64,000 nucleotides of DNA from positions 10,704,378 to 10,768,377 of the forward strand of contig JALMQS010000030.1 of assembly GCA_024734495.1 (NCBI GenBank). The letters are read 5' to 3'. Positions within the stretch are counted from its first letter, which is position 1; each line of letters opens with the position of its first letter. This document shows, one piece after another, positions 2,642 through 58,225 of the stretch. Position numbers and translations under genes: made by a program. Source of the DNA: Forficula auricularia. Its lineage: Eukaryota > Arthropoda > Insecta > Dermaptera > Forficulidae. The notes below the pieces were generated by a model. That model saw nothing but the letters and a program-made list of their open reading frames with translations, was not told the origin of the DNA and searched no databases.

Positions 2642-2695
2642 TTATAACGCGACTATAGTTTCGAGGGCTTTGCCCTCTTCATCAGTCTATTACAA
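2642..2695 (-). ncRNA. Hammerhead ribozyme, family A, intact core
   Basis: On the minus strand: CUGATGA (2679-2685), one extra A, a six-base-pair stem II GAGGGC/GCCCUC with an AAA loop, then GAAAC, a UAUA loop and GUC. Stem III is two base pairs (AC/GU) and cleavage is predicted after the C of GUC. A seven-pair stem I forms between UUGUAAU upstream and GUUAUAA downstream, with mismatches next to the core. This is the type I, short-stem-III form known from Penelope-like elements and retrozymes. Activity is inferred. Confidence 0.8.
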
Positions 2696-2987
2696 TTGAT
2701 TCACGGGAATTAATTTATGAATGGAAGGTTAGAATTTTTCAAATGGTTGAGCTAAGAATTGACATTTATGTGTAGTCAATAAAATCTTTTATAAAAAAAA
2801 TCTTATAACATTAATTTAAAACCCGCAAACGTTTTGAGAGAATTTCTATATTTATGAATTGAATTTAATTATCATTTTCTGGTTCATTTGCCTGACGCTT
2901 TCTCTTACGAGATGCATGCAAGGTATTATATTGAGTCACTATTAATAACATCACAAATATGAGAAAAATAAAAATAATTTTTATAAA

Positions 2988-3398
2988 AAAAAATAAAACC
3001 GACTTCAAAAAAATTAAATAAATAATAAAAAATAAAATAATAAGAACTCAAAAATCAAATAAAATACACTAAAAGGTATAAAATAATTATCTAATTTAGT
3101 TACAACTAAACGACCTAATATTAACGTGAAATTACTTTTTGAAGTCGGTGCCAAACATATACATTTTATGAATCGCACTTGACGGATCTTACTTAGTACG
3201 TTTGGCGGGTACGCTCGCTTATTGGTATAGTTTGTTTGGCACCGACTTCAAAAAGTAATTCCATGTAAATATTTCGTCGTTTAGTTGTAACTAAATAAGA
3301 TAATTATTTTATACCTTTTAGTGGATTTTATTTTATTTTTAAGTTCATATTATATTATTTGTTGCATTTAAGTTTTTTGAAGTCGGTTTTTTTTTTAT
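2988..3398. mobile_element. Foldback MITE with ACCGACTTCAAAAA ends
   Basis: Long inverted repeat: the left arm starts AACCGACTTCAAAAAAAT and the right arm ends TTTTTTGAAGTCGGTT. Both arms carry the word ATACCTTTTAGTG or its complement. A second, inner inverted pair of the same motif (GAAGTCGGTGCCAAAC near 3138 and its complement near 3235) gives two concentric terminal repeats. No ORF. Confidence 0.8.
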
Positions 3399-3400
3399 AA

Positions 3401-5800
3401 TATTAAATAATTTTGAACACGTTTTGGGAACGTGATATAATACAAAATGCGCCATTTCTGCATATTGTTATCATCCTTTAAGAGATAATATCCTGAAACC
3501 ATGAGGTGAGTATATCGTGTGGGCAAGTGAAGAACCAGGCAGGTGATCCATCTGGATCTCGGACAGGAGTCACTCAACCAAAAGAGCCGAGTTTCTCTAG
3601 GGTGAAGGCCAGACGGACGGACAGACAAAGTGGGTGGCTCTTGTTCCTTTAAACCCGTCATTATGTCCTTCCTTATTTAACCCCCCTTTCTATTTTCAGA
3701 ATATGTACGAATTATCCATTTGCATTTTAAACCAGGAGAGAACTTTAGCATGAGAGGTTCGATCTATTCTTGTCAAACAAAAATGTTCTTTTTTTCACTA
3801 ATTACGTTCATATTCTGGTTGGATTACGTTTGCTTACGTTGTCCGATGAGTAAAAATTCTTTTTTAACTTCGAGTATTCATAAAATCTCGTAGAAATGAA
3901 TCATGATTAATTTGGTAGTCGAAATTTGACACTATGAAAAAATATTGTATCCAAGAAAATGTAATAAATATATTAGAATAAAATTAAATTTATACCTAAT
4001 AATTATAATTTTATTTTAATTAATTTTGACAAGATATTGTGCATAGAAAATCTCACAAATACGCAAAAATATTTTAATTTTTTTTTCGAAAATTTTTATT
4101 CTCTTTGCAGAATTTGTTTCTCTTCTATATATAAAAAAATAACTGCTTGAATATTTCAGCTCAAAATATAAATTTTTAAGGGTCGCTCTAAAATAATATT
4201 TCAAGATTTTTCTATGGTTCCTGTTTAACGTTTTCAAGCGATCTTTAAATAACGTTTTTGGGATTTATTGTAAAATAAATTAATAGCCTGCATTATGGAC
4301 TATGACAATGAATCTATTTTGATACCGATTTTTTGAGTCTCAGTCCTCTATTTTTGATCATTATGTTGTAATTTTGACATACCTACAACATTTTGATATA
4401 AAAGTGACAATATAGAAAATAACAATTGATTTTTACTTTTTTGAGATATTTCAAAATTCTCGAGCGACCTCTAAATAATTTTTTTATCGAGCTAAAAAAT
4501 GTGGAGTTTTTTTACATTTTTGAGATATTACAAAATTTTCGAACGAACTCTAAATAATTATTTTATCGAGCTGAAAAATTTGGAGAGGGTTCTTAAAACA
4601 TTACAACAACGACTATAAATACTAACAAATTTTCACGCGAGACGCCAAAAAGAAAAAAAATAATTGATAGGTATATGTTTATTTGCATCAAGCAGAGGAG
4701 AAGCTTAGTTATTTATTTTTATATATAAATTAAAAGCTGATATAGATGCAATACTACAGATGGAGACATACCTACTTTACTCGGTAATATTATGTAGGAG
4801 AAGTAATTTATGATTATTTAAAAAAAAATTTCCGATGAAATTAAATTTTTATTTTTGGATTAATATTGAACACATTTTAGTCTTATTCTAAATTTTCTAT
4901 TTTGATCAAATTAATGTAGATAGTAAATTTTATATTAAATCATGCAAGTCCGTTTTTATTAAATCCAGTATATCAAGCATGGAGAGAATATAATTTTCAA
5001 TCTTTTTGTTTTTACTTATTTCGATATTATAATAAATTTAAAACTTATAAACTAGGAATTATGTATCATATTTAAAAAGGATAAAATCCAAACAAGTAAG
5101 TAAGTATGTACTTAAATATCATGGCGCTATTTACAGAATACATCTCTCCCAATCTCTCTCTGTATTTTGAATAGTACCTACAAGTTTTCCAGAACAGGTT
5201 ATTTGACACTAATGGTAATATAGACAGGTATTTATACATATATAGATTTAGACATAGGTATAAATTGTATATAGAAACGAGAAATTGGATTGGAAATTGA
5301 CCTGGTTTGTTGAGGATTTGCCACTCGCTTCCATAATTCAACCTTTATTATTCTTTTTTGCTTTTTTTACAAATGTATTTTTTTTACTTTTTAGTGGCCA
5401 CCCCTGCTTGCTGTCTCTAAAGCTGAATATTTGTAAATCTTTCATAAAAAATTCGGATTAGTCATGTGAAAAAGATTAATCTAGTTCGAAAAAGACCAAA
5501 AAAAAAAAAATTATTAACTTGCGAATGTGTCAAATAAAATGTATAATTAAATTTTTTATTTTGCCTTGTATTTTAAAACCCACTAATAGTTAAATTTACA
5601 AATAATAAAATTATATGAAATTTATTAATTAGATAACTTATTAAATAAATTGTTAATTAATTAAATAAATACATTAAATAATTAGAGGTATTTTCTATTG
5701 AAGATGGATTAGTAGAACTCAATACTTAATTGATTCAAAGGATAATGAAAACCACAAATTATTAATAATAATAATTTGTTGGAAGATCATTTTCATTCTC
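3401..5800. other. AT-rich region, little recognised
   Basis: No supported gene. An imperfect tandem pair of about 70 bp lies at 4436-4580 (TTTTGAGATATT.. then TAAATAATT..TTTATCGAGCT). The words TATATGTTTATTTGCATC and AAGCAGAGG at about 4670-4700 are the tail repeat that elsewhere accompanies ribozyme family A (9.0, 23.3, 33.5 and 35.2 kb). Confidence 0.4.
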
Positions 5801-5810
5801 TTAAAAAAAG

Positions 5811-5850
5811 CCGATGATTCGGAGGATCTTTCCTCCTTCTTCAGGGTATA
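5811..5850 (-). ncRNA. Decayed hammerhead ribozyme, family B
   Basis: Minus strand: CUGAAGA (5838-5844), extra A, a six-pair stem II GGAGGA/UCCUCC, then GAAU instead of GAAA. The changed base is A15.1, which closes stem III, so this copy is probably inactive. Downstream sequence matches the copy at 9.26 kb. Confidence 0.55.
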
Positions 5851-6094
5851 AAAGGATCAACGAAAAAACCTCTGTTTATATATTACTGGTATTAATATTA
5901 TTTTTAATTGCATTTAAGTTCAAAACTTTGTGCTTTTATGATAATAGCTGGAGTGAGTCAAAAATGTTTCCAAAAAAAAAAAAAAAAAAAATATTTCAAT
6001 TCTATTTACCATAACTCAACCTGCAAATAAAAAAATAAACCTTTTTAACTGAATTCGAAATTCAGAATAATATTAACATATAGTATATATTTTT

Positions 6095-6145
6095 TAACTA
6101 TAGGAAAAAATTACCGGGCAACGCTCGGTCCGCCAGGTACTATAT
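6095..6145 (+). mobile_element. Element 3' end with GAGC-type hairpin and GGTACTAT
   Basis: ACCGGGCAACGCTCGGTCC then CCAGGTACTATA. The same end motif recurs at 10.39, 15.72, 21.38, 26.39, 42.56 and 42.89 kb. It resembles a Helentron-like end (hairpin close to a terminus without CTRR), but the class is uncertain. Confidence 0.45.
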
Positions 6146-6600: not shown

Positions 6601-6619
6601 GATCAATACCTAAGGTACT

Positions 6620-9060: not shown

Positions 9061-9085
9061 TGTGTATATTTAATTTATTTATGTG

Positions 9086-9125
9086 AGACAATACTTTCGA
9101 AGGTTTGACCTTGATCACCAGTTTT
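9086..9125 (-). ncRNA. Decayed hammerhead ribozyme, family A
   Basis: Minus strand CUGGUGAUC in place of CUGAUGAUG, then the AAGGU/ACCUU stem and GAAAGUAUUGUC. The A6-to-G change in the first core strand should abolish cleavage. Flanks match the other family A copies. Confidence 0.5.
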
Positions 9126-9261
9126 TTTTATTAGAAATATTTCTCATGGGGTGAATTACCCAGTGAATATAGAAAAAATTTTATAGCAAGCTAGTCACAT
9201 AAAAGATTTAACTATATCTCAAACAAATAAATTATATACATATAATATATATGATCATCAC

Positions 9262-9300
9262 AATTCGGAAGATCGTCCCCTTCTTCAGAGTTTAAAAGAG
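9262..9300 (-). ncRNA. Decayed hammerhead ribozyme, family B
   Basis: Minus strand CUGAAGA, a disrupted GGGGA/UCUUCC stem II, then GAAU. Same family and same GAAU change as 5.82 kb; the downstream text AAAAAACCTCYGTTTATA is shared with that copy. Confidence 0.45.
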
Positions 9301-9695: not shown

Positions 9696-9820
9696 TATAT
9701 ATATATATATTAATTTTACTTAGAGAAAGTGGTATAGGTTTTAGGTGAAACATGATATTAATTAATAAAGTAAAGGGTGTGTAGTTTCACAGTGAATGAA
9801 ATAAAACTCAAAGAGGTTTA

Positions 9821-9869
9821 TACAAACTCAATATATTTCGGATTATTAGTCCATCATCAGGAGTTTACA
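9821..9869 (-). ncRNA. Hammerhead ribozyme, family C, intact core
   Basis: Minus strand: nine-pair stem I (UGUAAACUC with GAGUUUGUA, some G-U pairs), CUGATGA (9854-9860), extra U, three-pair stem II GGA/UCC, GAAA, UAUA loop, then UU. Cleavage is predicted after the second U, immediately before GAG. The A15.1-U16.1 pair is the only stem III pair. Sequence is identical to the plus-strand copy in the other arm. Confidence 0.85.
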
Positions 9870-10251
9870 GGTTAAAACTAATAATATTTGAACATGTGAT
9901 CACAAATTATAACATCTAAATCATACGTACCAATATAACACAAGAAAAACATCAACATTTAACAATAATGAATTTAAATTTAATTACGATAAAATTAAAA
10001 ATTTTTAGACAAGTCAACATAAATAGGTATAGAAAAAAAAATATATTTTATCTTTTTCTATGTTTATGTTGACTTGTCTAAAAATTTTAATTTTATCGTA
10101 ATTAAATTTAAATTCATTATTGTTAAATGTTGATGTTTTTCTTGTGTTATATTGGTACGTATGATTTGGATATTATACTTTGTTATATTGGTACGTATGA
10201 TTTAGATGTTATAATTTGTGATCACATGTTCAAATATTATTAGTTTTAACC

Positions 10252-10300
10252 TGTAAACTCCTGATGATGGACTAATAATCCGAAATATATTGAGTTTGTA
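10252..10300 (+). ncRNA. Hammerhead ribozyme, family C, intact core
   Basis: Mirror partner of 9821-9869: CTGATGA at 10261-10267, GAAA at 10282-10285, the same nine-pair stem I. The two ribozymes point away from each other, so transcription across the palindrome in either direction yields one active-sense ribozyme. Confidence 0.85.
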
Positions 10301-10384
10301 TAAACCTCTTTGAGTTTTATTTCATTCACTGTGAAACTACACAACCTTTACTTTATTAATTAATATATTTTAATTTTAAATAAC

Positions 10385-15450: not shown

Positions 15451-15524
15451 ATGTTTCACCAAGAACCTACACCATTCTCCCTTAACAAAATTAATACTTA
15501 AATAATAACCAAGCTACAGAGCAT

Positions 15525-17654: not shown

Positions 17655-17715
17655 AGGTGTAAATTTATAGACAATGTTTCGGTCTTTTTTGAACCTTCAT
17701 CAGCATTTGAGATAC
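17655..17715 (-). ncRNA. Hammerhead ribozyme, intact core
   Basis: Minus strand CUGATGA (17697-17703), extra A, four-pair stem II GGUU/GACC, GAAAC, AUU loop, GUC (ending 17670). Stem III is AC/GU; cleavage is predicted after GUC. Stem I pairs only partly next to the core. This copy is not in an obvious palindrome, and its flanks do not match families A-D. Confidence 0.75.
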
Positions 17716-19678: not shown

Positions 19679-20917
19679 ACCCGTTTGGAAATAAATAGAT
19701 TTTCGAAATATGTTTTTTAAATATTTTTTGAAAATATAAAAAATTTATTGAAAAAATATAAAAAAATTTTGTTAAATTTATATAAAGCTTATACTAGAGC
19801 GACATAAAAATAATTATATTTTAAGAATATATAGAAAACATAAACTTTATATAAATTTAACACAAAAATTTTATATTTTTAATATATTTTTTTCAAGGAA
19901 ATATTTAAACTTCCACTCGAAACCTCCATCTATTCAGCCGAAGGCTTCGCCATTCTGAGGGCCGTTCAATATATTAGAAATGTTCATGATTATAACAAAT
20001 TTCTGGTCTGTACTGACTCGTTGGGGATTTTAAAGGCAATTAATGGTTTCCCCAAAAACAAAAACCCTTCCTATATTATTTTAGATATTATAGAGGAATT
20101 AAATAAACTCAGGGTTGATGGGAAAGAAATTGAAATTCTATGGATACCTAGTCACACTGGCATTACGGGAAATGAGGAGGTTGATAGGCTGGCCTGTCTA
20201 ACCGATGGTATTCCACACTCAATTGATCTAACGCCCAATGATATCCGTTCAATAATCAAGAAGAGAATTTACTGGTGTTGGCAGAATATGTGGTCGTCAT
20301 CAAGTATGGTAAAAGGTCGTCATTTCTTTAATGTATGTCCGAGAATCCCGGTTCGTCCGTGGTTTGAAAACTTCGATCTTCATCGAAAACTGAAAGTTCA
20401 CATTATACGACTTAGACTAGGACATGCAATAACACCTGCATACCTACACAAAATCGGCCAGAGAAATAATCCATACTGCTCTTGTGATTCCATTTCTATT
20501 GGCGATATTAACCACGTACTTCTGGGCTGTGTGACACACAGTCAAAAAATTGATCGTTTATACCTGAATATGAAAGGAAGAAATGATTTACCCACATGTG
20601 CAGAGATCCTATTAGCATCTCTAGACCAAGGAGGGCCAACTGCAGACTCCTTTATTAAACATTTAGTTTCCATTGGTTTCCAACTATAATCCAACGACTT
20701 TAGTTATTTGTTTTGTTAGTTTATTTTGTTTTAATTAGTTTTGTTTTATTTAGTTTTATTTTATTTGTTTATACACCTATTCGACGTGAATCTGTGACGA
20801 CTGGCTAAATGGGCATCAAGTTCCCGAGGCCAAGGGGTAGGAAAAAAAATATATATTTTCAAAAAATATATAAAAAACATATTTCGAAAATCTATTTATT
20901 TCCATACTAGTAGGGGG
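19679..20917. mobile_element. MITE family P, copy 2, split by a LINE insertion
   Basis: Left end CCCGTTTGGAAATAAATAG, right end ..CTATTTATTTCCATAC. The AT-rich interior matches 1911-2162 up to about 19890 and resumes after 20850. The middle is a retrotransposon fragment. Confidence 0.75.
19905..20850 (+). pseudogene. 5'-truncated LINE (I/R1-like) fragment: RNase H and C-terminal zinc knuckle
   Basis: The frame is open from about 19907 to 20689. Visible: YSAEGFAILRAV (RNase H Glu), FLVCTDSLGILK (Asp), WIPSHTGITGNEEVDRLA (last Asp), then LKVHIIRLRLGHAITPAYL and a C-x-C..H..C cluster (YCSCDS, INHVLLGC). The first RNase H Asp strand, reverse transcriptase and endonuclease are missing. A 3' UTR and A-run follow. 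Near-identical ATATATTTT..CAA text on both sides suggests a target duplication inside the MITE. An RNase H domain excludes Jockey and CR1 and fits I or related clades. Confidence 0.85.
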
Positions 20918-21754: not shown

Positions 21755-21805
21755 AAAAGACTGATGATGAAGATCAAACCTTCAAAAACTATAGATATTC
21801 TGAAA
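21755..21805 (+). ncRNA. Decayed hammerhead ribozyme, family A
   Basis: CTGATGA at 21761-21767 is intact, but GAAAC has become AAAAAC and GUC has become GAU. Upstream GTAATTGAACCCATGAAAA and downstream TTCTGAAACAAATA match the other family A copies. Confidence 0.55.
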
Positions 21806-28234: not shown

Positions 28235-28295
28235 CTTTCTTTTTAAACGAATGTTTCGGAGGATTTTTCCCTCCTTCTTCAGGGTTTCAAAGGGT
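28235..28295 (-). ncRNA. Hammerhead ribozyme, family B, intact core
   Basis: Minus strand CUGAAGA (28276-28282), extra A, five-pair stem II GGAGG/CCUCC, GAAAC (28253-28257), then AUUC and GUUUAAAAAG. Cleavage after UUC lets stem I form: CUUUGAAACC upstream against GUUUAAAAAG, about seven pairs with one bulge. Confidence 0.75.
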
Positions 28296-30847: not shown

Positions 30848-31456
30848 AATAAACTGCAACGGATCGTTGCTAAACTTTATCCAAATTCATTTGAAATATT
30901 AATATGTTCTTGAGTAAAGTACATTAAAATATAATTTTACTAAAAACTTTATTTAACCTTTTTTATGGTCCCCAAGGTACTTAATTAGGATATTAAATTT
31001 CATCAAAATTGGTTAAGTCATTTTCAAGATATTTAAAAAAAACTAAAAAAGTACCGAAATAAAGTACTAATGTTTGTGGACCGATATGTACCAAAAACTA
31101 ATCAGCGCTTCATTTTGTTAAACTAATGGTAGGTTTTCAATTTCATTTCAATCAGCGCAAAGGTGTGAAAAAAATCGTGGACGAAAAAAACGATAACACA
31201 CACACATACATACATACATCCATCCCCACGCACTTCCAAAAAAAATGGCACTTTTTGGCCTCTCGACGAGATTCCAGGTAATTTTTGGCAAAACCGCCAC
31301 GTGCTAAAATTCAATCTCATTGAATACTTCAATTTGTGACCTTAATTGAGTCTATGGGTTCCGTAGTCTTTACCTGAGGACCCTTTGAAGTCGCGCTTGC
31401 CTCGAGAGCGATTCCAATACTTTCTCCTATGCTTCGCATTGGATAAAGTAAAAATT
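30848..31456 (+). mobile_element. Repeat family F, full-length copy (~610 bp)
   Basis: Starts CTGCAACGGATCGTTGC then TAAACTTTATCC and ends GCATTGGATAAAGTAAAAAT, so the ends carry an imperfect ACTTTATCC/GGATAAAGT inverted motif. Interior landmarks: CCCCAAGGTACTTAATTAGG, ACCAAAAACTAATCAGCG, GGCCTCTCGACGAG, TTCCGTAGTCTTTACCTGAGG. Further copies: 26.0, 47.3-47.9 (inverted), 52.6-53.1 (inverted) and 59.1-61.25 kb. No ORF; class undetermined. Confidence 0.75.
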
Positions 31457-32072: not shown

Positions 32073-32338
32073 TCGAGGGGTGAACCGCGATTGGAATTAG
32101 GTGTACATGTTTTTTGGAATTATATGGAATTATTTTGGAATTCATTAGATAATGCCCCTTCATCTTTTTTACTTATGGAAAGTGGTGTAGGTTTTAGGTG
32201 AAACATGATGTTATTTAATAGAGTAAAGGTGTGTAGTTTCACAGTGAATGAAATAGCCCCTTCATCTATTGTCTTCTACTTGGAAATGGAACTGGAAGTA
32301 GGTGTACACGATATTAGGTCGCGGTTCACCCCTCGATG
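32073..32338. mobile_element. MITE with CGAGGGGTGAACCGCG ends, interrupted
   Basis: Left CGAGGGGTGAACCGCGA, right CGCGGTTCACCCCTCGA, with GGTGTACATG / GGTGTACACG just inside. A 90-bp insertion (32166-32255) with a 12-bp target duplication lies in the middle. Confidence 0.75.
32166..32255 (-). mobile_element. Inserted tail of ribozyme family C, with 12-bp target duplication
   Basis: Flanked by GCCCCTTCATCT at 32154-32165 and 32256-32267. The insert equals the segment just downstream of the 9.82 kb ribozyme (TTTCATTCACTGTGAAACTA, ..CATGTTTCACCTAAAACC) and on the minus strand ends AAGTAAAAA. An A-rich 3' end and a 12-bp duplication are typical of target-primed insertion of a 5'-truncated RNA. 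The ribozyme itself is not included. Confidence 0.75.
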
Positions 32339-33584: not shown

Positions 33585-33645
33585 TTTATTTGTTTCAGAC
33601 TATAGTTTCGAAGACTTGGTCTTCATCATCAGTCTTTCTTCAATT
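33585..33645 (-). ncRNA. Hammerhead ribozyme, family A, intact core
   Basis: Minus strand CUGATGA (33626-33632), extra U, six-pair stem II GAAGAC/GUCUUC with a CAA loop, GAAAC, UAUA loop, GUC. Best preserved member of family A. Cleavage is predicted after GUC, before UGAAACAAAUAA. Extended stem I pairing is not evident by eye. Confidence 0.8.
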
Positions 33646-34107
33646 ATAAATGTATTTCATGGAGTCAATATCATATGGATATTGAAAACTTAGTGTTCCA
33701 TCGTCACTGGTGGTCGGCTAGGAACTCTAGGAACAAAAACTTTTCAATATTACCTAGTACCTATAATACACTTGGTTTTATTTTGGATTATAGTCAATAA
33801 CATGGTTAATCAGAATTGAGTAACGAAAATTAGAATAATAAAATATGGAAAGTTGTCTATAGTCGAAGTATCTTAATATTAGGGTAGCGATTTGCACAAT
33901 TTTCAAAAAATGCCCATAACTCGAAAACTGTCAGACCTTTATTAAATTTTTTTGATCCTGTGCCCTCATAAACTGGACTTTTGCTTGTCCCCGGATTAAT
34001 GTTGAGTTTTGGGTTTTGGGACCCTCTGTGTATTATTTGATGGAGACTATAATTATTTGACTTGAGTGGTTCATTTACTTAAAAAAAAACAACTAAAACT
34101 AACATTT

Positions 34108-34145: not shown

Positions 34146-34259
34146 ATTATTATTATTATTTTTTGAGATAGTCAGCTTAATATTCCATCAAAACAAATTT
34201 ACCTACATCCAAATCGTGTATTTGAACCCATGCATAATAACACAGAAAATTTCTAATTA

Positions 34260-34305
34260 AAAAGACTGATGATGAAGGTCTAAACCTTCGAAACTATATT
34301 ACCTA
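34260..34305 (+). ncRNA. Hammerhead ribozyme, family A, altered cleavage site
   Basis: CTGATGA (34266-34272), extra T, five-pair stem II GAAGG/CCTTC, GAAAC (34290-34294), TATA, then TTA in place of GTC. The A15.1-U16.1 pair and a UH site (UUA) remain, but the second stem III pair is lost. Inverted partner of 33.6 kb. Confidence 0.6.
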
Positions 34306-34601: not shown

Positions 34602-34649
34602 CAAAACCCTGAAGAAGGAGCCAATAATCCTCTGAAACGTCGGTTTTTT
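34602..34649 (+). ncRNA. Hammerhead ribozyme, family B, intact core and stem I
   Basis: CAAAACC upstream pairs with GGTTTTTT downstream (six contiguous pairs). CTGAAGA at 34609-34615, extra A, four-pair stem II GGAG/CUCU, GAAACGUC at 34634-34641. Stem III is ACGU with no loop, so efficient folding may need two molecules, as for other short-stem-III hammerheads. Cleavage is predicted after GUC. Confidence 0.85.
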
Positions 34650-38410: not shown

Positions 38411-38633
38411 GTGAGTAGTTTTTTAGCTTATTTTTTATTTATTTATTTTAATTTTTCCTTATTAACTAAACTTCTCTTAAAAGTATGAATAAACAATTAA
38501 ATGAATTTTTATAATAAATTATTCATAAGAATTTTGCTGGCTTGGTGTGTACTGGATATATTGATTTTTTATTGTTAAAGGATAAATAAATTGAATTGCT
38601 TCTTTCCAGTAATTTATTTTATTATTCAAATGG

Positions 38634-38683
38634 TTAATCCAAATATTTCGAGAGCGCTCTCGGCATCTCTTCCTCAGTGGAAA
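38634..38683 (-). ncRNA. Hammerhead ribozyme, family N, intact core
   Basis: Minus strand UUUCCA, CUGAGGA (38671-38677), extra A, a stem II closed by GAGA/UCUC with a longer structured loop, GAAA, UAUUU, GGAUU. Stem I pairs UCCA with UGGA. Position 7 is G, the permitted variable base. Cleavage is predicted after the UU before UGGAUU. Confidence 0.75.
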
Positions 38684-39139
38684 CTGTGAGACCACACAAT
38701 AGGCAAGTCAGTGAGTTATTATTAATTACAGATGTCAAAGGTACTCACCCACTCCCCATTCATAATTTTGATTTTGAAAATTTTAATATAATTGACTATG
38801 AAAAAAATAAAACAAAACGTTTTTTCAAGGAATCGTGTTTCATCCAACAAAGCCTGAAAAACACAGTAAATTACAAGGTAGACACGGGCTTTTTAATGAG
38901 GGAATACATAATTTTAATAGAAATGACAAAAAAATAAACATTTATGCTTTTTTTATTAATTAATTCCGCGTGCCAAAAAACGTAGACAATATTGTGGTCG
39001 TTGACCTTCCCTTGACTGGTCATTAACATTAATTAGTTCATGTTAAATTTAAACCAGCTCGAGTACTGATTAATTTTTGATTTTTTAAATTTCATTCGGA
39101 CTTCATTATAAAGAGATGTAAATAATTGTATATACTCGC

Positions 39140-39215: not shown

Positions 39216-39332
39216 TTATCAATGTTCTGTACAAACTGATGGGGTCGGCACATTGGTGGGGAGTGGGTGAGTACCTTTTGACATCTGTAATTAATAATAA
39301 CTCACTGACTTGCCTATTGTGTGGTCCCACAG

Positions 39333-39382
39333 TTTCCACTGAGGAAGAGATGCCGAGAGCGCTCTCGAAATATTTGGATTAA
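39333..39382 (+). ncRNA. Hammerhead ribozyme, family N, intact core
   Basis: Mirror of 38634-38683: CTGAGGA at 39339-39345, GAAA at 39367-39370, same stems. The two arms are almost identical across the ribozyme. Confidence 0.75.
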
Positions 39383-39440
39383 CCATTTGAATAATAAAAT
39401 AAATTACTGGAAAGAAGCAATTCAATTTATTTATCCTTAA

Positions 39441-39441
39441 C

Positions 39442-39477
<36 letters not shown>
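39441..39477. repeat. (TAA)n microsatellite
   Basis: About twelve AAT/TAA units between the ribozyme palindrome and the LINE N-terminal ORF. R4/Dong-clade elements are known to insert in TAA repeats. Confidence 0.9.
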
Positions 39478-39481: not shown

Positions 39482-40800
39482 CAGGAACTCATTCTGATGA
39501 GTACGTGGATGGCGACCACGGGGTATCCGAGCTAAGTCTGACATTGCTTCCACTTACTTGTGTCAGGCTTCTCTCTTTTCTCTTTCCTATCTGGCCTCTC
39601 TTGGCCAACTCTTGTTTTTTTCCGACCCCGACGCTATTAGGTTTTCGAGGGCAAGGGGTTCATTTCTTTTTTCATCTTTCTTCTCTTCGCCCTGCAGGGA
39701 GTATGGTTGACGGAGGTTGCTAGATCCTCTAACGGACGCCTCCCCCGGTGACGGATATGGGAATGCCTCCCAGATATGGGTGGTACCGGGGAAATGAAAT
39801 ACCCGGAGCGGCCCAAAATTAGCAAAGGACACGACGGTTCTCCATGTTAGGAGCGGTACTCCGACAGCGTCTGTCTCCATGTGAGGAGCGGCTGAATAAA
39901 TGCTGGCAGTAGCTCTAAAATGCAAAGCCCAAAATGAAACGATTATTGGAAAATAGTATCGCGGGCGATCGGTCCTCGCAAGACCGCGCAGAAGGTTCTG
40001 ACATTGGGCCAACTGTGTCAAATGAGATACCTGTGTCAGTGGATGGTGGTGGACCTAGTACAGAACAACAGTCTAGGAGCGGCGCTGCACCACTTATGGC
40101 TACCGCAGAAGTAGGAGCATCAGCTTCAAGTACTTTGAGTCGGAGTAGCTTGAGGACTCCATCTACAGGGTCTTCCGCTGCTTCAAGACCAACTAGCCAG
40201 CGCACGAAATGGACCATAGAGATGAATACCTCTGTGATGCGTGCGTACTATACTAGTACAAGGGTAGGAACGGAATGTGAGGGATTCAGAGCGAGGATGC
40301 ATGCGGAGTGGAGGAGAATGTATCCAGACAGTACGTTAACCGAACAAAGAGTATGCAGCCAGTTAAATTCCATCCAAAGAAGAAATGTGTTTTCAACTGA
40401 CCAAATTGATCAGATTAAGCGGCAGGTGGCTGGGGAACTTCAAACCAGTTTTGCGCCTCAGATTCATCCTCATGGCGAACAACAACCTGAGGATGAAGTA
40501 ACACAAAGCGAAGGACATGCAGCTGAAAATCAACTGGTAACACCAGCTGATGAAGAACAACTTAATGGTGAACTGCAATGCGAAGACGAACAACTAAAAG
40601 GTGAATTGCAACACAATTATCATAAATACCATATGATGTACGATGGTGTCGCGTTGAAGGAACGACCTCGCATTTCGAAAGTCTCCGGCAATAAGAATTT
40701 TTATACTACATGTAAAATCATGAATTCACTGGTGGAGGATTCGGTCTCTCGGTCGTCTTCTGTATTGTATCAAAGCTTTGATTAAAATCTTGAAAATACA
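39482..40800 (+). pseudogene. Non-LTR retrotransposon 5' region with N-terminal ORF, truncated
   Basis: GC-richer than its surroundings. The ORF 39934-40785 (283 codons) has a Ser/Thr-rich N-terminus and then a conserved-looking block: TKWTIEMNTSVMRAYY, ..FRARMHAEWRRMYPDS, TEQRVCSQLNSIQRRN, IDQIKRQV. This is like the N-terminal domain seen in non-LTR retroelement proteins of insects and cnidarians. It then has EEQLNGELQ-type acidic repeats and RPRISKV. It stops before any reverse transcriptase. About 450 bp upstream would be the 5' UTR. Position after (TAA)n suggests an R4/Dong-like clade; this is inference. Confidence 0.6.
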
Positions 40801-43109: not shown

Positions 43110-44240
43110 TAATCAATTTAATCACAAAAATAATACCTTTATCAGATACAAAGTTGATAAATGGGATTAACGATTTTTTTTTAATATTAATGTCTAAATC
43201 ACGTCAAATTTTATTCTGACTAATAATGTCATATTTTGTTATTAAATCTGAAATTATCTATAAATTTTGAATAGATAAAAAAAAAACTTTTCCAGGGTTG
43301 TAATTAACCGGGTGTAACACCTAAATATATACCTATAAGTATAAAAACCGGTTTTGATTTTTTTCTTAAAGAATGTTGCCGATCGAATGATCTTGTCTAC
43401 AACTAATTAACTACGAATTAAAAACCGAAACGAGATTCGCCGCGGAAGATTAATTTACCCCTTTCTCAAAAAACGTCATTTCCCCTCCCGCGCCCCCCTA
43501 CCCCTACTCTCTTTTCACATTTTTCTTTCTCTTAATCGCTCAACTTCACTGTTAGGGTCAAATTAATAAGCATCGCTAGTTAAGAAAATGAAATTATGTA
43601 ATTAATCAATTCGGTTAATTTAATAACACGGTTAGTTTAAAAGTGAAAGAGAGTTTAAAAAAAGGGCTTTAAAAAGTGCAACAAAATGTGTATATAGAGA
43701 AAGGATAGATTTTTTTTAAGAGACTTTCGAATATAGGATAGAGAGAAAGAGAGAGAGAAAGTATTTAATAAAAGCATCAACCTCAACACATCAAAAGAAC
43801 TCGCTGGGGGAAAAAAAAAAAAAAGAAAAAGTTGCAAGTTTGAAAGTGAAAAGTTAAACAAGTTTTTTGTTTTTCAAAAATTACATTTTTTTTTTTTTTT
43901 TTAATATATTTCCTAAAAAGTTGATTTATTTATTTATTTATTAAAATCAATATTTCTTATACTAGATATTGAATGTAACCCAAAATAGAAATATTGTGGG
44001 TTCATTAATCCAAATAATTTTTATAATTAAGGGGAGGGGGGTTGTGGAGTTTCCCAGAAATGAAAGATTTAAAAATATATTTCGGGTTGTTAACCCATCT
44101 TCAAGAGTACATATAGACCGATCAATAAATAAAATAAATAAATAAAAAAAATAAAAAAATCAACAGAAACCTCCCAAACATATCATTCGACTCAAACTCA
44201 CTAGAAGTCTAATTGTGAGGAGTTTGCTTTTAGCATCACT
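43110..44240. other. AT-rich region, no gene
   Basis: Includes GAGAGAGAAAGAGAG text (43739-43760), a TTTA tract (43925-43942) and the weak ribozyme relic at 44.07 kb. Confidence 0.35.
44066..44115 (-). ncRNA. Hammerhead ribozyme with mutated C3, family C
   Basis: Minus strand UUGAAGA where CUGAAGA is expected, then U, a five-pair stem II GGGUU/AACCC, GAAA and UAUAUUU. Everything but the essential C3 is conserved. C3 pairs with G8 in the active site, so this copy should be inactive. Confidence 0.6.
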
Positions 44241-44244
44241 CTAT

Positions 44245-44700
44245 TCAGCCCTGTATTTTTTGAATAATTAGTATTACAAATGGGGATAAAAAAGGTTTCG
44301 ACAATGCAATGCGACTGTAATATTGAGGTACTTTGAAATTAATATATTGGAGAATTTCACAACAATCAATCAGACCATTCAACAGTTTGCGAAGGAATAT
44401 CAAGTCATTTTGTAGTCTACGGGATGACAAACTTTGGATATTTAGTTCGGTTCTTAAGAGTCTAGAAGAGGGATAGTTATATGGGGTAAGAGAGTTATTA
44501 GTTGATGAGAATTTATATGATATAATTTTTAAAAATTTATTTTGCACTCTTTCAATTTGGTCAATTTGATGTTGGACATGCGGTGGCCAAATTAAACTGC
44601 AGTATTCCAGCTTGCTTCTTACTAGGGAGTTAAATAGTATTTTTAGGCAGTTGGAATTTTTGAAATTTTTTGTATTTCTATATATAATTTTAGATCTTGA
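44245..44700 (-). pseudogene. LINE reverse transcriptase C-terminal fragment (Jockey/CR1-like)
   Basis: Minus-strand frame: ILFNSLVRSKLEYCSLIW, PPHVQHQIDQIERVQNKFLK, then SSRRLQNDLIFLRKLLNG and LQYINFKVPQYYSRI. SLVRSKLEYCS..W..IERVQNKFL and RRL.NDL.FL.KLLNG are the classic post-RT region of Jockey/CR1-type elements. It has no RNase H. Truncated at both ends, with no reverse transcriptase catalytic block. Confidence 0.85.
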
Positions 44701-44754
44701 AGAAGGGAAAGTTTCACTTTTTCGATTTTTTCCTTTATTATTTATTACAGTTTA

Positions 44755-46134
44755 AAGGGCGCCTCGACTGCGTGGTCATTTGCGCCACAGATATTAAATG
44801 CGTTATATTTTCAATTTTTAAATTTCTTTTACATGTTTGGTTTTATAGTTAAATATAAAAGTGAGAACTCAGATATTATCATAAATGTTAATGACTCTCA
44901 AAAACTCGAACAAATTATCATATCCTTCCTCATTTTCGAGTATTTGTTTTAAGTCTTTGTTCCCCATTGAATGACATTTTCTTTCCCTTGCGTAAATTGG
45001 GCATTCCACTAATACATGATTTACATTTATCCTAACTTTGCAAGCTGGACATATCGGTGGGTCATCCTTGTTCATTAGATGGCCGTGGGTGAATAAGCAA
45101 TGACCCAATCTTAGGCGGGTCAATTTAACTTGCTCTTTTCTACTTAGATCTGAAGCTGATATGGAACCAATGATGGGTTTTATCATCTTTAAATAGTTAT
45201 TAGTAACTTTTTCCCATTCTAGCTTCCAGTTACTTATAGTTTTGGTTTTAACAAAATTTTTAATGTCTTCAGGCAGATTTTCTGTGAAGTCATAATTTTG
45301 TTTATTGGCTCCCCTTTCGCCTGTTCGTCAACAAGCTCATTACCTGGGATGCCTTTATGGCTGGGAACCCACATAAAGTGGATTATTTTCCCTCTTAGAA
45401 TAAAATTATGAAAGGATAAATGTATTTTCTGTATGAGTGGATGCTGAGTGTTATAATTTTGGATTGCAGAAAGAGCACTAAGCGAATCGGAGATTATAAG
45501 AAATTTATTGTTTGGGTGATGACTGAGGGTTGACATTACTAGTTCAATAGCTTTGATTTCAGCATTGTATATGTTTGTTACAGAAGATAATTTGAAATTT
45601 CTCTCTGATTCTTCAATTTTAAAAGCACATCCTACCTTATTTTCAAGTTTGGACCCGTCTGTAAATATTAGAGAATAATTTTCGAATTTAGAAATTATAT
45701 TATAAAAAGCTTGTACATACATGCAAGGGCTGGTCGTTTTCTTATTAAAATTGAGAAGCTCCCATATACAATTTGGCTTTTCTATAAGCCAAGGTGGATA
45801 GGGGGGGTTGATAACTTTCACGGACTGGTCCAATTGATTTTCAAATTCAATTTGAAAATTTAAACTTCTTATTGCGAGTGGCTTAGTGCTCCTTGTACGT
45901 TGTACATATTTGTTCACATTTGTGGGAGAAAATAACATTTTAAAACATGGGTGATTGGGCAGGGAATTTATTTTTATTAAATAGTTATTTGATAGAATTT
46001 TTCTTCTCACTCTTAATGGTGGTTCACCGGACTCGGCCAGAAGGCTAATAACAGGGGTTGAACGAAAAGCTCCTAAGGCAGTTCTGATTCCTAAATTGTG
46101 AATTGGGTCGAGTTGTTTAAGTACACGTTCTCTT
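44755..46134 (-). pseudogene. LINE (I-like) fragment: RT tail, RNase H, zinc knuckle; frameshifted
   Basis: Starts in the RT tail with LDPIHNLGIRTALGAFRSTP and LLAESGEPPLRVRRK. RNase H is complete: IFTDGSK (Asp), NAEIKAIEL (Glu), ISDSLSAL (Asp), WVPSHKGIPGNELVDEQA (Asp). A one-base frameshift near 45.29 kb separates this from TISNWKLEWEKVTNNYLK, LTRLRLGHCLFTHGHL and the knuckle PPICPACKVRINVNHVLVEC. 5'-truncated; a 3' UTR follows to about 44.76 kb. It lies next to a different LINE fragment in the same orientation. Confidence 0.9.
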
Positions 46135-47299: not shown

Positions 47300-47890
47300 A
47301 TATATAATTTATACTTTATCCAATGCGAAGCATGGACAAAGTATTGTAATCGGTTTCGCGGCAAGCGCGATTTCAAAGGGTCCTCAGGTAAAAACTACGG
47401 AACCCATGGTCTGAATTAAAGTCACAAATTGTAGTATTCATTTAGGTTGAATTTTAGCACTTGACGGTTTTGCCAAAAATTACATGGAGTCTCGTCGAGA
47501 GGCCAAAAAGTGCCATTTTTCAGGAAGTGCGTGCGGATGGATGTATGTTATCGTTTTTTTTGTCCACGATTTTTTCCACACTGTAGAACCGATTGAAATG
47601 AAATTGAAAACCTCCCATTAGTTTAACAAAATTAAGCGCTGATTAGTTTTTGGTACATATCGGCCCACAAACATTAATACTTTATTTCAGTACTTTTTTA
47701 GTTTTTTCTATTTTGAAAATTACTAAACCAATTTTGATGAAATTTAAATTATAATTAAGTACCTTGAGGGCCATAAAAAAGGCTATATAAAGTTTTTTGT
47801 AAAATTATATTTTAAAGTACTTTACCCTAGAATAAGATGGTACATTGGATAAAGTTTAGCAACGATCCGTTGCAATTTATTTCATTTTTA
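47300..47890 (-). mobile_element. Repeat family F, inverted copy
   Basis: Carries the 3' end ACTTTATCCAATGCGAAGC, GACCCTTTG-type and GTCTCGTCGAGAGGCC text, CGCTGATTAGTTTTTGGT and the 5' end TTTAGCAACGATCCGTTGC. Near full length. Confidence 0.75.
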
Positions 47891-48670: not shown

Positions 48671-48781
48671 CTAATGAGTTTATAGTATTAATATATTTAA
48701 TGTTATTGGAAATCATGGCTGTAATGTAAGTGCAGTGGGATCCTGGAGATATTAGCCAAAATGGGATTCAATAAAACTCCC

Positions 48782-48832
48782 AGAATATGACGTTTCGGCC
48801 TAAATTTGTTCGGGCCATCCTCAGTTATTGAG
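48782..48832 (-). ncRNA. Hammerhead ribozyme, intact core
   Basis: Minus strand CAAUAA, CUGAGGA (48818-48824), extra U, stem II GGCC/GGCC around a 12-nt loop, GAAACGUC (48789-48796), AUAUU. Stem III is ACGU without a loop. Four A-U pairs in stem I after one mismatch. Cleavage predicted after GUC. Confidence 0.75.
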
Positions 48833-49014
48833 AATTATACACATATATTACAAAACGCATATGTGATCGAACCTAGTTTTGTCAACAATAAGAATTTTAG
48901 CTTCATGAAGTTTATTTTACCTCTGAACTTTGGGCCCAATAACGACACGAAGCTAAAATTCTTAGTGTTGACAAAAATAGGTTCGACACATTGTAATGTG
49001 TCTATTATTCCCAA

Positions 49015-49062
49015 TAATTGAGCATGGCCCAATAAAATTTAGGCCTAAACGTCTTATTCTGT
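49015..49062 (+). ncRNA. Decayed hammerhead, right arm
   Basis: Same position as the left-arm ribozyme but TTGAGCA for CTGAGGA and TAAAC for GAAAC; ACGTC and GGCC/GGCC remain. Three core changes should destroy activity. Confidence 0.6.
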
Positions 49063-49379
49063 GAGTTTTATTGATCCCGGTGCATCCCATTTTGGCTGAT
49101 ATCTTCATCAAACTTCATGCAAAAAAAAGTGGATTTCTTATTAGAAATAGTTAGTTTTTTCAAATAATTTTCAGAAAAAACATATTTTATTTAAACTTTT
49201 AATACATTCTGTGATTGTACAAATATTTTAAAAGATTTTTAGAGTGAAAACAATGTATTACTTTAATTTAAACCTTTTAAAATTAAATTTATTTAAACTA
49301 GCATAAATTTGCAGGTTTGAAATTTGATCCCTTTTTGAATTGTATTAAATGATTATCGATAATAAGTAAAAATATATTT

Positions 49380-49622
49380 TTCTAGGTGGGTTTCACAAAT
49401 AAAACAAATATATGTTTTGAGTTTTTAATCTCGATATATATTTCGGGTTATGAGCCCATCATCAGGAGTTACAAAAAGAAAAGCTCATAACCCGAAATAT
49501 ATATCGAGATTAAAAACTCAAAACATATATTTGTTTTATTTGTGAAACCCACCTAGAAAAATATATTTTTACTTATTATCTATTAAAATGTTTCACCTAG
49601 AACCGACACCTAATTCTTTAAA
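49380..49622. mobile_element. Family C palindrome with hammerhead and shared tail
   Basis: Arms GGTGGGTTTCACAAATAAAA, CAAATATATGTTTTGAG and their mirror surround a short centre (GGAGTTACAAAAAGAAAAGC). The right side continues with AATGTTTCACCTAGAACCG, the same tail as at 9.74 and 32.2 kb. The left arm carries a full ribozyme; the right has only the GAAA half. Confidence 0.85.
49426..49471 (-). ncRNA. Hammerhead ribozyme, family C, intact core
   Basis: Minus strand CUC, CUGATGA (49459-49465), extra U, stem II GGG/CCC, GAAA, UAUAUA, UC, GAG. Stem I CUC/GAG is short but exact. Cleavage predicted after AUC. Confidence 0.75.
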
Positions 49623-49737
49623 GATTATAAATGATTATCGTCTAATATCGAATTAAATTGAATATTTTAATGTTTATCAGTTCGATTTGAATATCTCATC
49701 TTTTAATTTAATTTCATTTGAAATATTGTCCAAGCAT

Positions 49738-52567: not shown

Positions 52568-53085
52568 TATTTACTTTATCCTATGCGAAGCAGATAAAGT
52601 ATTGAATCGGTCTCCGAGCCAAGTGCACTTCAAAGGGTCCTCAGGTAAAGACTACGGAACCCATGGTTTCAATTAAAGTTTTTTTCCCACACCGTTCAAC
52701 CTATCGAAATGAAATTGAAAACCTATTATTACTTTAACAAAATAAAGAGCTGATTAGTTATTAGTACATATCGGCCCACAAACATTAGTACTTTATTCCA
52801 GTACTTTTATTATTTTCTAAATATCTTTGAAAATGACTTAACCAATTTTCATGAAATTTAATATTCTAATTAAGTATCTTGAGGACCATAAAAAAGGTTA
52901 TATAAAATTTTTAACAAAATTACATTTTAAAGTAGTACAGTAAGTCTACAGAAAGTTAGTACTTTTTAAAATTCTTTAAAATTTATTTATTTAGTCGGTT
53001 TATCTTATTAATAATAAATGAAAAAACATATTAATATTTCAAATGACTATAGATAAAGTCTAACAACGTTCCGTTGCAGTTCATT
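52568..53085 (-). mobile_element. Repeat family F, diverged inverted copy
   Basis: CTTTATCCTATGCGAAGC, GGGTCCTCAGGTAAAGACTA, TGATTAGTTATTAGTACATA and TAACAACGTTCCGTTGCAG. About 120 bp of the middle (the GGCCTCTCGACGAG region) is missing. Its 5' part includes the TTATTATTAATAAGATAAAC segment at which the 59 kb copy is interrupted. Confidence 0.7.
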
Positions 53086-53830: not shown

Positions 53831-53834
53831 ACAC

Positions 53835-54430: not shown

Positions 54431-54431
54431 T

Positions 54432-54536
54432 TATCCCAGGTAACCACAATATCATAAGAATATTCTAAGGATATTCTAAGGACATTTAAATCTTCTTAGA
54501 ATATTCTGAGGATATTGTGTGTTACCTGGGATAGAG
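54432..54536. repeat. Short palindrome (mini-MITE)
   Basis: ATCCCAGGTAACCACAATAT and its mirror ATATTGTGTGTTACCTGGGA. Interior CTAAGGATATTC words are repeated and mirrored. About 105 bp. Confidence 0.8.
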
Positions 54537-56320: not shown

Positions 56321-56374
56321 ATCAGTGTTATATTTCAAATAAGGAATAAGTCGTGTGTTGTCCACACCAGTTGA

Positions 56375-56575
56375 TTAAATATGTATCCAAGCAATATAGA
56401 GTATCGTTTCGGCTGTCAATTGTCTAAGATTAGCTCGGTGTAGAGACGAGGGAGTGTAGACTTGTACCATAGGCTCCCGACCGGTAGACAAAGCGCCGTT
56501 CAGGTAGCGTATTTTTAGATGAGACGTCTGGATTGTCTCGTTGTTTGCATCAGAGTTGTCGGATTCTATTTCCAT
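56375..56575 (-). CDS. Possible coding exon (unrecognised)
   Basis: Minus-strand open frame beginning MEIESDNSDANNETIQTS, then LKIRYLNGALSTGREPM, QVYTPSSLHRANLRQL. Composition is protein-like, and the ~200 bp upstream on that strand are GC/CpG-richer than the background, as a first exon might be. No homology recognised and no certain splice donor, so a spurious ORF is possible. Confidence 0.25.
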   Translation of the reverse strand: MEIESDNSDANNETIQTSHLKIRYLNGALSTGREPMVQVYTPSSLHRANLRQLTAETILYIAWIHI

Positions 56576-57439
56576 TCCGAAATACTAAAACTTTTTGATG
56601 AGAAGTAGAAATTCGAGAAAATTCTTTACCCAGGATTTAAGACAAGACAAGACAACACTGTGTCGTCCATTGAGTTGGTGGGGTGGGGAGGGGGGGTGAA
56701 TGAGTGACGTCGGCAATCAGTCCCCGCAAACGGATTTAGATCAATTCGAAACTTTGGAATTAAAATAACTTGACAAATTACACACAAGAAAGAAGAGGAA
56801 ATAATGGATTTACAAGAGGGGGTTCCGGAACGGTGTTAAATTTATCTTCAAGTCGTAAACTTTTCGACTTTTAATAGACTTTTCATTAAAAAATACCGCC
56901 ATTTCTGATTTATCGTATTTATTTATTATAATTAAATTCATTTTATAAAATAAAATTTATATCAAAACAAATAAATTATCTACACAGAATGTTATTTATT
57001 AATTTTCTTCCAGAACTTAAGTGACTTGATTTAAATTTTTCATATACATATCAGAAGGGTATGGTCTCATTGTGTCATTGTTGTGAGAATATTGATTTGA
57101 TTTAGTATATTGATTAAACATGTTTTGATTTTATAAGAAAAATGTAATAGGGAGATGTGTATTTTGATATTTCGTTAATAAAAAATTAAAAATAAAGAAT
57201 AAATTTAACTTATAATGTGTTTCTAGAATGGATTATTTATAATGGGTTTTTTAATTGTATAATAATTGATGATGCAATGAGATAATTAGAAAAAAATAAA
57301 ATTGAAAATAGTATTTAATAAAATCATTAATTCAAAATAGTTTCTAGTTCAGTGATAAACGTTTTTATAAATTGTTGCTATATATATATGTATGTGTGTG
57401 ATTGTAATGAATTGTGTGATCTATCTAAATTGAAGATTT

Positions 57440-57720
57440 AAGAATGAATGTTTCATGTGAAATGACAAATTCCGGTTCTTGAACGAGATGTATGTATGAT
57501 TTCAAATTATTGTAAAAAAATTTTGTGTTATATAATTCTCTATAAAAAGAAAAAATGTAAATAAATGTTTCATTTCAATTTTAGAACTACTGAGGATGGT
57601 CGACCAGTGGTGACCGAAACTGTATAGTTATCAATTAAATAATTCTAATAGTTATTAAAATTATTGTTTTATTATATTTGTGACAAAACCAACCCTTCAA
57701 TTTAATGAAAAACAGAATGT
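57440..57720 (+). mobile_element. Ribozyme family D, copy 1
   Basis: GGTTCTTGAACGAGATGTAT, ATGTTTCATTTCAATTTTAG, the ribozyme, then TTATTGTTTTATTATATTTG and GTGACAAAACC. Direct copy 2 at 57.9-58.26 kb. Confidence 0.7.
57575..57640 (+). ncRNA. Hammerhead ribozyme, family D, intact core
   Basis: CTGAGGA (57590-57596), extra T, stem II closed by GGTC/GACC with an inner GGTCGACC alternative, GAAAC (57616-57620), a TGTATA loop, GTT. Stem III AC/GU; cleavage predicted after GUU. Stem I is AU-rich and partial. Confidence 0.75.
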
Positions 57721-57894
57721 TATGTCTTGAGTAAAATAAATAATCAATATTTTAGGAATTTTTTTTTAAGACTCGGTACACTTTTCATAATTTTTTAAAA
57801 ATTATTTAAGAGTGTACAGTGAATTTGTAAGGTTTCTCTAAATAAACATTTACCTAAAAATTCTTTCAGAACTTAAGTAACTTAATTTTGAAAT

Positions 57895-58225
57895 TATGTT
57901 TAAATTGAAAGGGTTTTTTTAGTCACAAACTAATAAAAGACTATAATTTTAGTTAATTATTATTATTTATTTTATTGATTCACTAAACAGTTATCTATAC
58001 AAAGTTGACAATTTGCAGATCTTGAACGAAATTGTGTGTATAAATTCAGGATTCTTAATTTGTTGTATTACGACGAAATGTTTCATTTTTCAAATTTTAG
58101 TACTACTGAAGATTGTCAACCAGTGGTGACCGAAACTGTTTAGTGAATCAATAAAATAAATAATAATAATTAAATAAAATTATTGTCTTTTATTAGTTTG
58201 TGAATAAAAAAAACTTTCAATTTAA
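57895..58225. mobile_element. Ribozyme family D, copy 2, with inverted terminal segment
   Basis: About 90 bp at 57897-57990 (TTGAAAGGGTTTTTTTAGTC, ..TATTTTATTGATTCACTAAA) are the mirror of 58135-58222. The ribozyme lies at the inner edge of the right segment. Interior text (CTTGAACGAAATTGTGTG, CGAAATGTTTCATTTTTCAA) matches copy 1. Confidence 0.8.
58090..58155 (+). ncRNA. Hammerhead ribozyme, family D, with G at the cleavage site
   Basis: CTGAAGA (58106-58112), extra T, weakened stem II (GTC/GAC), GAAAC (58132-58136), TGTTTA loop, GTG. Position 17 is G, which hammerheads do not tolerate at the cleavage site, so cleavage should be lost. Confidence 0.65.

Follow-up and report, generated by a model that had tools for sequence, protein, structure and literature searches.

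Hammerhead-type ribozyme motifs with one extra core nucleotide in the Forficula auricularia genome and their link to Penelope-like elements

Results

Hammerhead-type motifs of several families

We analysed a 64-kb window of the Forficula auricularia genome (64,000 nucleotides of contig JALMQS010000030.1; coordinates are those of the window) in which a preliminary description had listed about thirteen hammerhead ribozyme sites on both strands, roughly ten decayed ones and at least five families. The window carries hammerhead-type motifs that fall into seven groups by flanking similarity, and open reading frame (ORF) starts of Penelope-like elements at 9753 (minus strand), 15451 (plus), 32206 (minus) and 49588 (plus). 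The features are given below with E-values from a covariance model (R1), which was trained on 18 sequences taken from elsewhere in this genome, outside the window, and searched with filters off. These E-values are rough, and for some window families the model is not blind, its training set holding near-identical relatives.

2648–2691, minus strand: family 2 hammerhead, extra A, stem II GAGGGC/GCCCTC, stem I side mutated; R1 E=1e-6
5806–5850, minus strand: family 3 decayed copy, similar to that at 28.2 kb; R1 E=0.0039
9084–9127, minus strand: family 2b-like decayed copy; R1 E=0.008
9252–9294, minus strand: family 3 decayed copy; R1 E=0.031
9709–9753, minus strand: Penelope-like ORF start (ATGTTTCACCTAAAACC...), element tail; ORF-start match
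9755–9940: left inverted arm of family 1 element, 99% complementary to 10181–10366
9825–9866, minus strand: family 1 hammerhead, extra U; R1 E=9.3e-8; Penelope-like ORF start at +107, 3/24 mismatches
10181–10366: right inverted arm of family 1 element, pairing with the left arm
10255–10296, plus strand: family 1 hammerhead (descriptor, R1, folding); stem I AAACTC/GAGTTT, core 10261–10267, extra U 10268, stem II 10269–10281, GAA 10282–10284, stem III 10285–10290, predicted cut after 10291
15451–15498, plus strand: Penelope-like ORF start remnant MFHQEPTPFSLNKINT; ORF-start match, weak tblastn match
17666–17709, minus strand: family 7 hammerhead, extra A; R1 E=1.4e-4; descriptor
21755–21798, plus strand: family 2b decayed copy; R1 E=0.0011
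28243–28288, minus strand: family 3 hammerhead, extra A; R1 E=2e-5
32147–32206, minus strand: Penelope-like ORF start remnant MFHLKPTPLSISKKDEGALS; ORF-start match, weak tblastn match
33597–33638, minus strand: family 2b hammerhead, extra U; R1 E=1.3e-5
33601–33651 and 34249–34298: inverted arms of the family 2b pair
34260–34304, plus strand: family 2b hammerhead, inverted partner of the 33.6 kb copy, stem III side decayed; R1 E=2.6e-6
34603–34648, plus strand: family 3 hammerhead; R1 E=9.3e-6, descriptor; stem I AAAACC/GGTTTT, core 34609–34615, extra A 34616, predicted cut after 34641
38566–38758 and 39257–39449: arms of the family 4 pair, 98%
38635–38683, minus strand: family 4 hammerhead, extra A; R1 E=7e-4
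39333–39381, plus strand: family 4 hammerhead, inverted partner of the 38.6 kb copy; R1 E=7e-4
44069–44110, minus strand: family 1-like hammerhead, TUGAAGA core, absent from the preliminary description; R1 E=6.7e-5
48782–48830, minus strand: family 5 hammerhead, extra U, within inverted pair 48744–49107; R1 E=0.038
49355–49583: near-palindromic inverted pair bearing the 49.4 kb motif; flank self-comparison
49430–49471, minus strand: family 1-like hammerhead, extra U; R1 E=2.6e-7
49588–49647, plus strand: Penelope-like ORF start remnant MFHLEPTPNSLKIINDYRLI; ORF-start match, weak tblastn match
57584–57630, plus strand: family 6 hammerhead; R1 E=0.095, descriptor, folding; stem I AACTA/TAGTT, extra U 57597, predicted cut after 57624
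58100–58171, plus strand: family 6 decayed direct repeat; R1 E=4; direct repeat 57563–57705/58076–58225

A descriptor combining CTGANGA, zero, one or two extra nucleotides, a stem II of ≥3 bp, GAAA, the A15.1–U16.1 pair, H17 and stem I matched ten sites in the window with one extra nucleotide, one site with none and no site with two. Shuffling the window 200 times with dinucleotides preserved gave means of 0.07, 0.04 and 0.055 for zero, one and two extra nucleotides (maximum 1 each); the comparison with shuffled sequence that had been proposed as a check, made here with the descriptor, came out in favour of the motifs, and the reversed window sequence gave no match. The single site without an extra nucleotide, at 34.61 kb, is also among the ten in another register. 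It was likewise the sole match without an extra nucleotide in a strict scan, even when stem I was not demanded (mean 0.3, maximum 2 in 100 Markov-generated sequences); the artefact reading prompted by this lone site was dropped once the one-extra-nucleotide register gave ten. The 26.88 kb site passes the descriptor and is counted in the ten, but it leans on many G-U pairs and was omitted from the feature list.

R1 detected 19 sites at E<0.1, of which 15 fall below 0.01. All thirteen sites of the preliminary description were recovered at E<0.1 and 11 of them at E<0.01, the others being those at 48.79 kb (E 0.038) and 57.59 kb (E 0.095). Six further sites at E<0.1 (5.81, 9.08, 9.25, 21.76, 34.76 and 44.07 kb) and four at E 0.18–0.27 (14.69, 52.11, 32.84 and 26.84 kb) make its estimate of decayed copies a fair one. 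The outcome of the covariance search that it had named as a check depended on the model: Rfam returned nothing in the window at gathering scores and, with the limit relaxed to E≤10, still no hammerhead, nor did it recognise one at ten further loci with a certain or possible copy of the motif, whereas the genome-built R1 found the 19.

Apart from decayed copies, the motifs have the conserved CUGANGA and GAAA strands and an NUH at the cut site. Their positions (CUGANGA, GAA-A, NUH) are constant across families while stems and loops vary. Stems I and II pair and covary, with GC, AT, CG, TA, GT and TG pairs seen in stem II, and several window copies fail at stem I. A stable monomer stem III is lacking, this helix being mostly 2–4 bp and often palindromic. 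In isolation the 10.25 and 57.59 kb motifs folded as drawn. These results confirm hammerhead-type motifs on both strands and in several families.

One extra nucleotide between the core and stem II

The catalytic strands had been described as lying at the right distance around stem II. Both strands and the stem are present, but stem II does not start directly after A9 with the 10.1–11.1 pair, and the spacing is therefore not the canonical one: each of the 15 window sites below E=0.01 has an additional nucleotide, in most cases U or A, between CUGANGA and stem II. This nucleotide had been overlooked, as had the inverted pairing of eight of the 19 motifs at E<0.1.

We collected 65 distinct CTGANGA...GAAA spacers, picked by core alone, from the window and from collected loci. 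With one extra nucleotide 40 of them form a stem II of ≥3 bp (shuffled mean 3.0, maximum 8); with zero, two or three the numbers are 5, 2 and 5. The extra nucleotide in the 40 is U in 21, A in 17 and G in 2. Since many of the loci had been collected via the motif, the genome-wide counts weigh more. Across the 1.06-Gb genome the exact pattern CTGANGA-W-GG...CC-GAAA occurs 50,394 times (25,336 + 25,058), against 2 + 4 for the reversed-pattern control, and CTGANGA-W-GA...TC-GAAA 37,491 times (18,650 + 18,841; control 5 + 5). The G-G/C-C stem without the extra nucleotide gave 403 copies (216 + 187; control 4 + 3), and on visual inspection several of these look like the extra-nucleotide form carrying G in that position. 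Compensation at the second stem II pair is based on the 65-spacer set and the two matched genome counts. A second Penelope family, represented by loci L001 and L049, has textbook spacing (CTGATGA GCCA AACAA TGGC GAAAC), and a pattern covering this family and some others counted 378 + 397 (control 7 + 4).

The genome-wide count that had been proposed thus amounts to 87,885 copies by the two extra-nucleotide patterns together. This corresponds to a mean of 5.3 per 64 kb, against 8 in the window (Poisson P about 0.17). The window is not clearly denser than the mean of its genome and is ordinary in this respect, contrary to the suggestion that so many sites in 64 kb would be unusual. The genome itself seems out of the ordinary in motif number, judged without a count from another genome.

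Association with Penelope-like elements

Genome searches with the family 1 arm gave 51 matches, from the best 40 scored of 1,877 first-look candidates. At one locus (L039) the arms lie 2.3 kb apart and enclose a reverse-transcriptase fragment, which used as a protein query gave 151 matches (best 150 scored of 1,051 candidates), some in open frames of >800 residues. The precomputed domains of the ORF homologues are RVT_1, PF26215, PF28514 and in some GIY-YIG; the named homologues among 120 listed come mainly from moths, butterflies and beetles. Locus L068 carries a motif at 988–1029 followed by an ORF from 1105 (MFHYKPTP...) with RVT_1 (E=3.8e-12). In the textbook-spacing family, two inverted motif arms of L049 flank a GIY-YIG domain (E=1.1e-4).

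Over all loci, 24 of 41 distinct ORF starts have a core ≤260 nt upstream, a biased proportion in that many loci were collected via the motif; the nearest cores lie 106–163 nt from the ORF start. Among loci collected by ORF only, 7 of 16 starts have an upstream core, and three of six further leaders collected by ORF position contain model matches. Upstream of the Penelope-like ORF of locus L077 an inverted copy of its own start is found (960–1180), the leader being cut off between motif and ORF. Family 1 copies lose similarity ~13 codons into the ORF, a common end, and such an ORF-start "tail" at copy ends is known in Penelope-like elements (PMC11167929; here and below, papers are cited for the accessible parts of their text). 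In the window the 9.86 kb motif is followed, 107 nt downstream, by the ORF start.

For family 1 and its relatives, then, a Penelope-type reverse transcriptase ORF adjoins the motif at genome loci, with ORF starts only in the window, and a leader with a hammerhead before the ORF is combined with an ORF-start tail. On the evidence of this context, family 1 belongs to Penelope-like elements, and of the carriers named in the preliminary description (Penelope-like elements, retrozymes, satellites) the first stands for at least this family. Because families 2–7 have the motif in common with family 1, along with its additional nucleotide and inverted layout, they are probably linked to such elements as well, and all window hammerheads are likely Penelope-type remnants. 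We favour, with a probability of roughly 0.78, the reading that these are type I hammerheads with an extra core nucleotide in Penelope-like leaders (family 1 and likely others), which would cut the RNA upstream of the reverse-transcriptase gene.

Extra-U hammerheads in viral contigs

In contigs classed as viral a first loose pattern scan gave mostly probable chance matches, with seven passing the stem test. A stricter extra-U pattern found at least 102 distinct sites among the matches listed, 89 of them with a stem I of ≥4 bp and a stem III of ≥3 bp, and the same pattern without the extra U at least 139, of which 121 had both stems; the first two pairs of stem III are dictated by the pattern, and the site numbers are lower bounds whose abundances are not comparable. 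When stem I strands were permuted, 10% (extra U) and 8% (without) kept both stems. Nine contigs (L115, L183, L221, L230, L241, L247, L263, L275 and L276) each carry two or three extra-U type I hammerheads on one strand, with a stem I of 6 bp and a stem III of 5–8 bp at every site. They share with the window copies the U after A9 and the G-G/C-C stem II, and differ in the 5–8 bp stem III, the 6 bp stem I (in the examples checked) and the carriers. Rfam reported no hammerhead on L115. The viral sites show that the extra-nucleotide spacing is compatible with a hammerhead predicted to pair fully. Protein searches with the reverse transcriptase gave no relatives among viral contigs; among species genomes they gave a single contig, which lacks the motif.

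These contigs bear on the possibility that the motif is a conserved protein- or reverse transcriptase-binding stem-loop of the Penelope leader, a hammerhead look-alike that does not cleave. Consistent with it are the one-nucleotide departure from the consensus spacing, a stem III of mostly 2–4 bp and the lack of Rfam matches, and one Penelope-like element did without ribozyme cleavage in vitro (PMC11167929). Against it, CUGANGA, GAA-A and NUH are constant while stems and loops differ by family, and viral contigs, in which the protein searches found no Penelope-like reverse transcriptase, keep the extra-nucleotide core with stems I, II and III. A weakly active viroid hammerhead with one additional nucleotide in its core has also been described (PMC11014351). 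We regard a non-cleaving stem-loop as unlikely.

Outward-facing inverted pairs

The inverted pairs of the window are those at 9.86/10.26, 33.60/34.27 and 38.63/39.33 kb. The 48.79 kb motif has a decayed inverted partner near 49.04 kb, and the 49.4 kb motif lies in a near-palindrome. Genome-wide, neighbours within 1 kb were oriented outward in 16 cases, convergently in 4 and on the same strand in 1 (99 places, with one further place set aside), and in a second set outward in 22 against 1 (100 places), both among the matches listed, which are the first places of longer lists and no genome-wide sample. The spacing of family 1 arms ranges over the genome from tens of bases to 2.3 kb.

This layout speaks to retrozymes, which are small, tandemly repeated non-autonomous units with type I hammerheads, propagated via circular RNA. 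The window has no enzyme gene, insect type I hammerheads have been reported in retrozyme-like repeats (PMC7229834), and the motifs at 57.59 and 58.11 kb are direct repeats ~516 bp apart. With this one direct pair excepted, however, the window copies are single or inverted and do not form tandem 150–450 bp monomers each bearing a type I hammerhead; close neighbours in the genome are mainly inverted, among the matches listed, and family 1 is joined to Penelope ORF starts. Retrozymes are thus a very improbable source, and the tandem layout expected of them was not found. Slighter still is the chance that the copies are terminal inverted repeats of DNA transposons (MITE-like, after miniature inverted-repeat transposable elements) carrying the motif by coincidence: the long arms, up to 99% complementary, and the outward orientation would suit them, but the reading is contradicted for family 1 because full members of this family and its relatives encode a linked reverse transcriptase between or beside the arms, and the variable arm spacing and the common end ~13 codons into the ORF, as for a retroelement tail, also argue against it.

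Other features of the window

CTGANGA by itself is enriched in the window (47 vs 15.25). The excess comes partly from a 119-bp tandem repeat (59.2–60.5 kb) and a dispersed repeat, both without the remaining motif. The tandem repeat forms two oppositely oriented blocks, 59240–59586 and 59647–60520, whose units carry CTGAAGA. By eye, neither its sites nor those of the dispersed repeat (31.37, 47.38, 52.64 and 61.17 kb) have a proper stem II with a GAAA strand. The dispersed repeat, of ~300–540 bp, contains CTGAGGACCC, is unrelated to the hammerheads and has four copies on both strands:

31022–31427: dispersed repeat copy
47307–47710: dispersed repeat copy
52638–52934: dispersed repeat copy
60712–61253: dispersed repeat copy

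Remnants of another retrotransposon class lie at 19883–20689 and 44245–46133, with RNase H domains (PF00075) at 19883–20689 and 45234–46133. An open frame of 288 residues at 39919–40785, without a Pfam match, adjoins the GC-richest 4 kb of the window. The palindrome at 48870–48983, around which the inverted family 5 pair is centred, has sub-cut-off scores as several microRNA precursors.

Discussion

What can be read from the DNA is the core with its additional nucleotide, paired stems I and II beside a very short stem III, frequent inverted pairing with the motifs facing outward and, for family 1 and its relatives, the place in the element. From these we propose the following course. RNA would be transcribed through the leader repeats, and two motifs would pair up via the palindromic stem III and cut as a dimer, a mode of cleavage known from reports on Penelope-like hammerheads (PMC6466107, PMC7761336). 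The product would be a unit-length RNA whose 5′ end is defined, ~75–130 nt ahead of the start codon, and the element's own enzyme might then copy this RNA. The window copies, which have no enzyme gene, could be mobilised by the enzyme of full elements elsewhere. The extra nucleotide may act as a brake on cleavage, leaving part of the RNA uncut, by analogy with a viroid hammerhead in which an extra core nucleotide weakens cleavage and its deletion raised cleavage with loss of infectivity (PMC11014351).

Several observations weigh against this interpretation. In the window an ORF start accompanies only the 9.86 and 49.4 kb copies, the remaining motifs being at background, and tblastn found no reverse-transcriptase coding sequence there beyond the ORF starts. 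Within the window no ORF could be tied to families 2–7. Nine of the 16 ORF starts collected by ORF lack an intact upstream core, some because the leader is cut off, and a domain search of L077 and L068 gave no match to GIY-YIG. An Anolis element inserted in vitro without need for cleavage, and RNA-seq ends were not found at its cut site (PMC11167929). At the level of folding, three of six isolated motifs are no better than shuffles (z above −1), the 2.65 kb copy has core nucleotides base-paired in its minimum-energy structure, and stem I or III is mutated in several window copies. Self-cleavage, transcription and transposition of the window motifs are predictions from sequence.

The primary accounts of minimal Penelope type I hammerheads are reportedly those of Cervera and De la Pena (2014) and of Lunse, Weinberg and Breaker (2017). 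A precedent for the core variant is said to be the hammerhead of Chrysanthemum chlorotic mottle viroid (De la Pena and Flores, 2001), with its extra nucleotide between A9 and 10.1. The viroid and the present motifs share one extra core nucleotide; the viroid has a single ribozyme, whereas here there are tens of thousands of copies with a minimal stem III.

Hammerheads in Penelope-like leaders are established (PMC6155905, PMC7761336). With the minimal type I hammerheads of these elements (PMC6155905, PMC7761336, PMC6466107) the present motifs share a short or absent stem III, the place in leader repeats, thousands of dispersed copies and, as predicted here, cleavage as a dimer; they differ in the near-universal extra nucleotide after A9, the 87,885 exact-core copies and the frequent inverted pairing. 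PAc, the Poseidon element of Anolis carolinensis, likewise has a hammerhead at the leader/ORF junction and a tail near the ORF start, but its ORF begins at stem II, whereas here the ORF starts 106–163 nt downstream of the core (PMC11167929). Perreault et al. (2011; PMC3088659) reported rare core variants, three of them from viroids, and their screen discarded candidates mispaired beside the core, for the most part repeat-borne "cryptic mutant hammerheads". The main-text section of that paper on core variants, to which this comparison is confined, mentions no nucleotide added after A9, and an extra core nucleotide outside the viroid case is not described in the accessible parts of PMC4918200, PMC3705267, PMC6155905, PMC9608096, PMC11014351, PMC12531169 and PMC4770207. 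If the copies cleave, natural hammerhead counts may be too low, because a screen of the PMC3088659 type and the Rfam models would miss the extra-nucleotide form. The new part is the near-fixed extra nucleotide together with the copy numbers, although Lunse et al. (2017) may already include the extra nucleotide.

More tentatively, and with odds somewhat below even, hammerheads with an extra nucleotide after A9 might be a large natural sub-class common to phages and Penelope-like elements, missed by standard models in which stem II has to follow A9 without a gap. Its role in Penelope-like elements would be to throttle a ribozyme that depends on dimers, restricting cuts to places where two copies of the leader come together, and this genome would hold ~100,000 such hammerheads.

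If the copies cleave, a core whose spacing has long been taken as fixed accepts one additional nucleotide at a constant position, both in natural copies numbering tens of thousands and in phage contigs. The role of the hammerhead in Penelope-like elements has been termed a mystery (PMC7761336), and a genome with many near-identical copies offers ready material for testing it.

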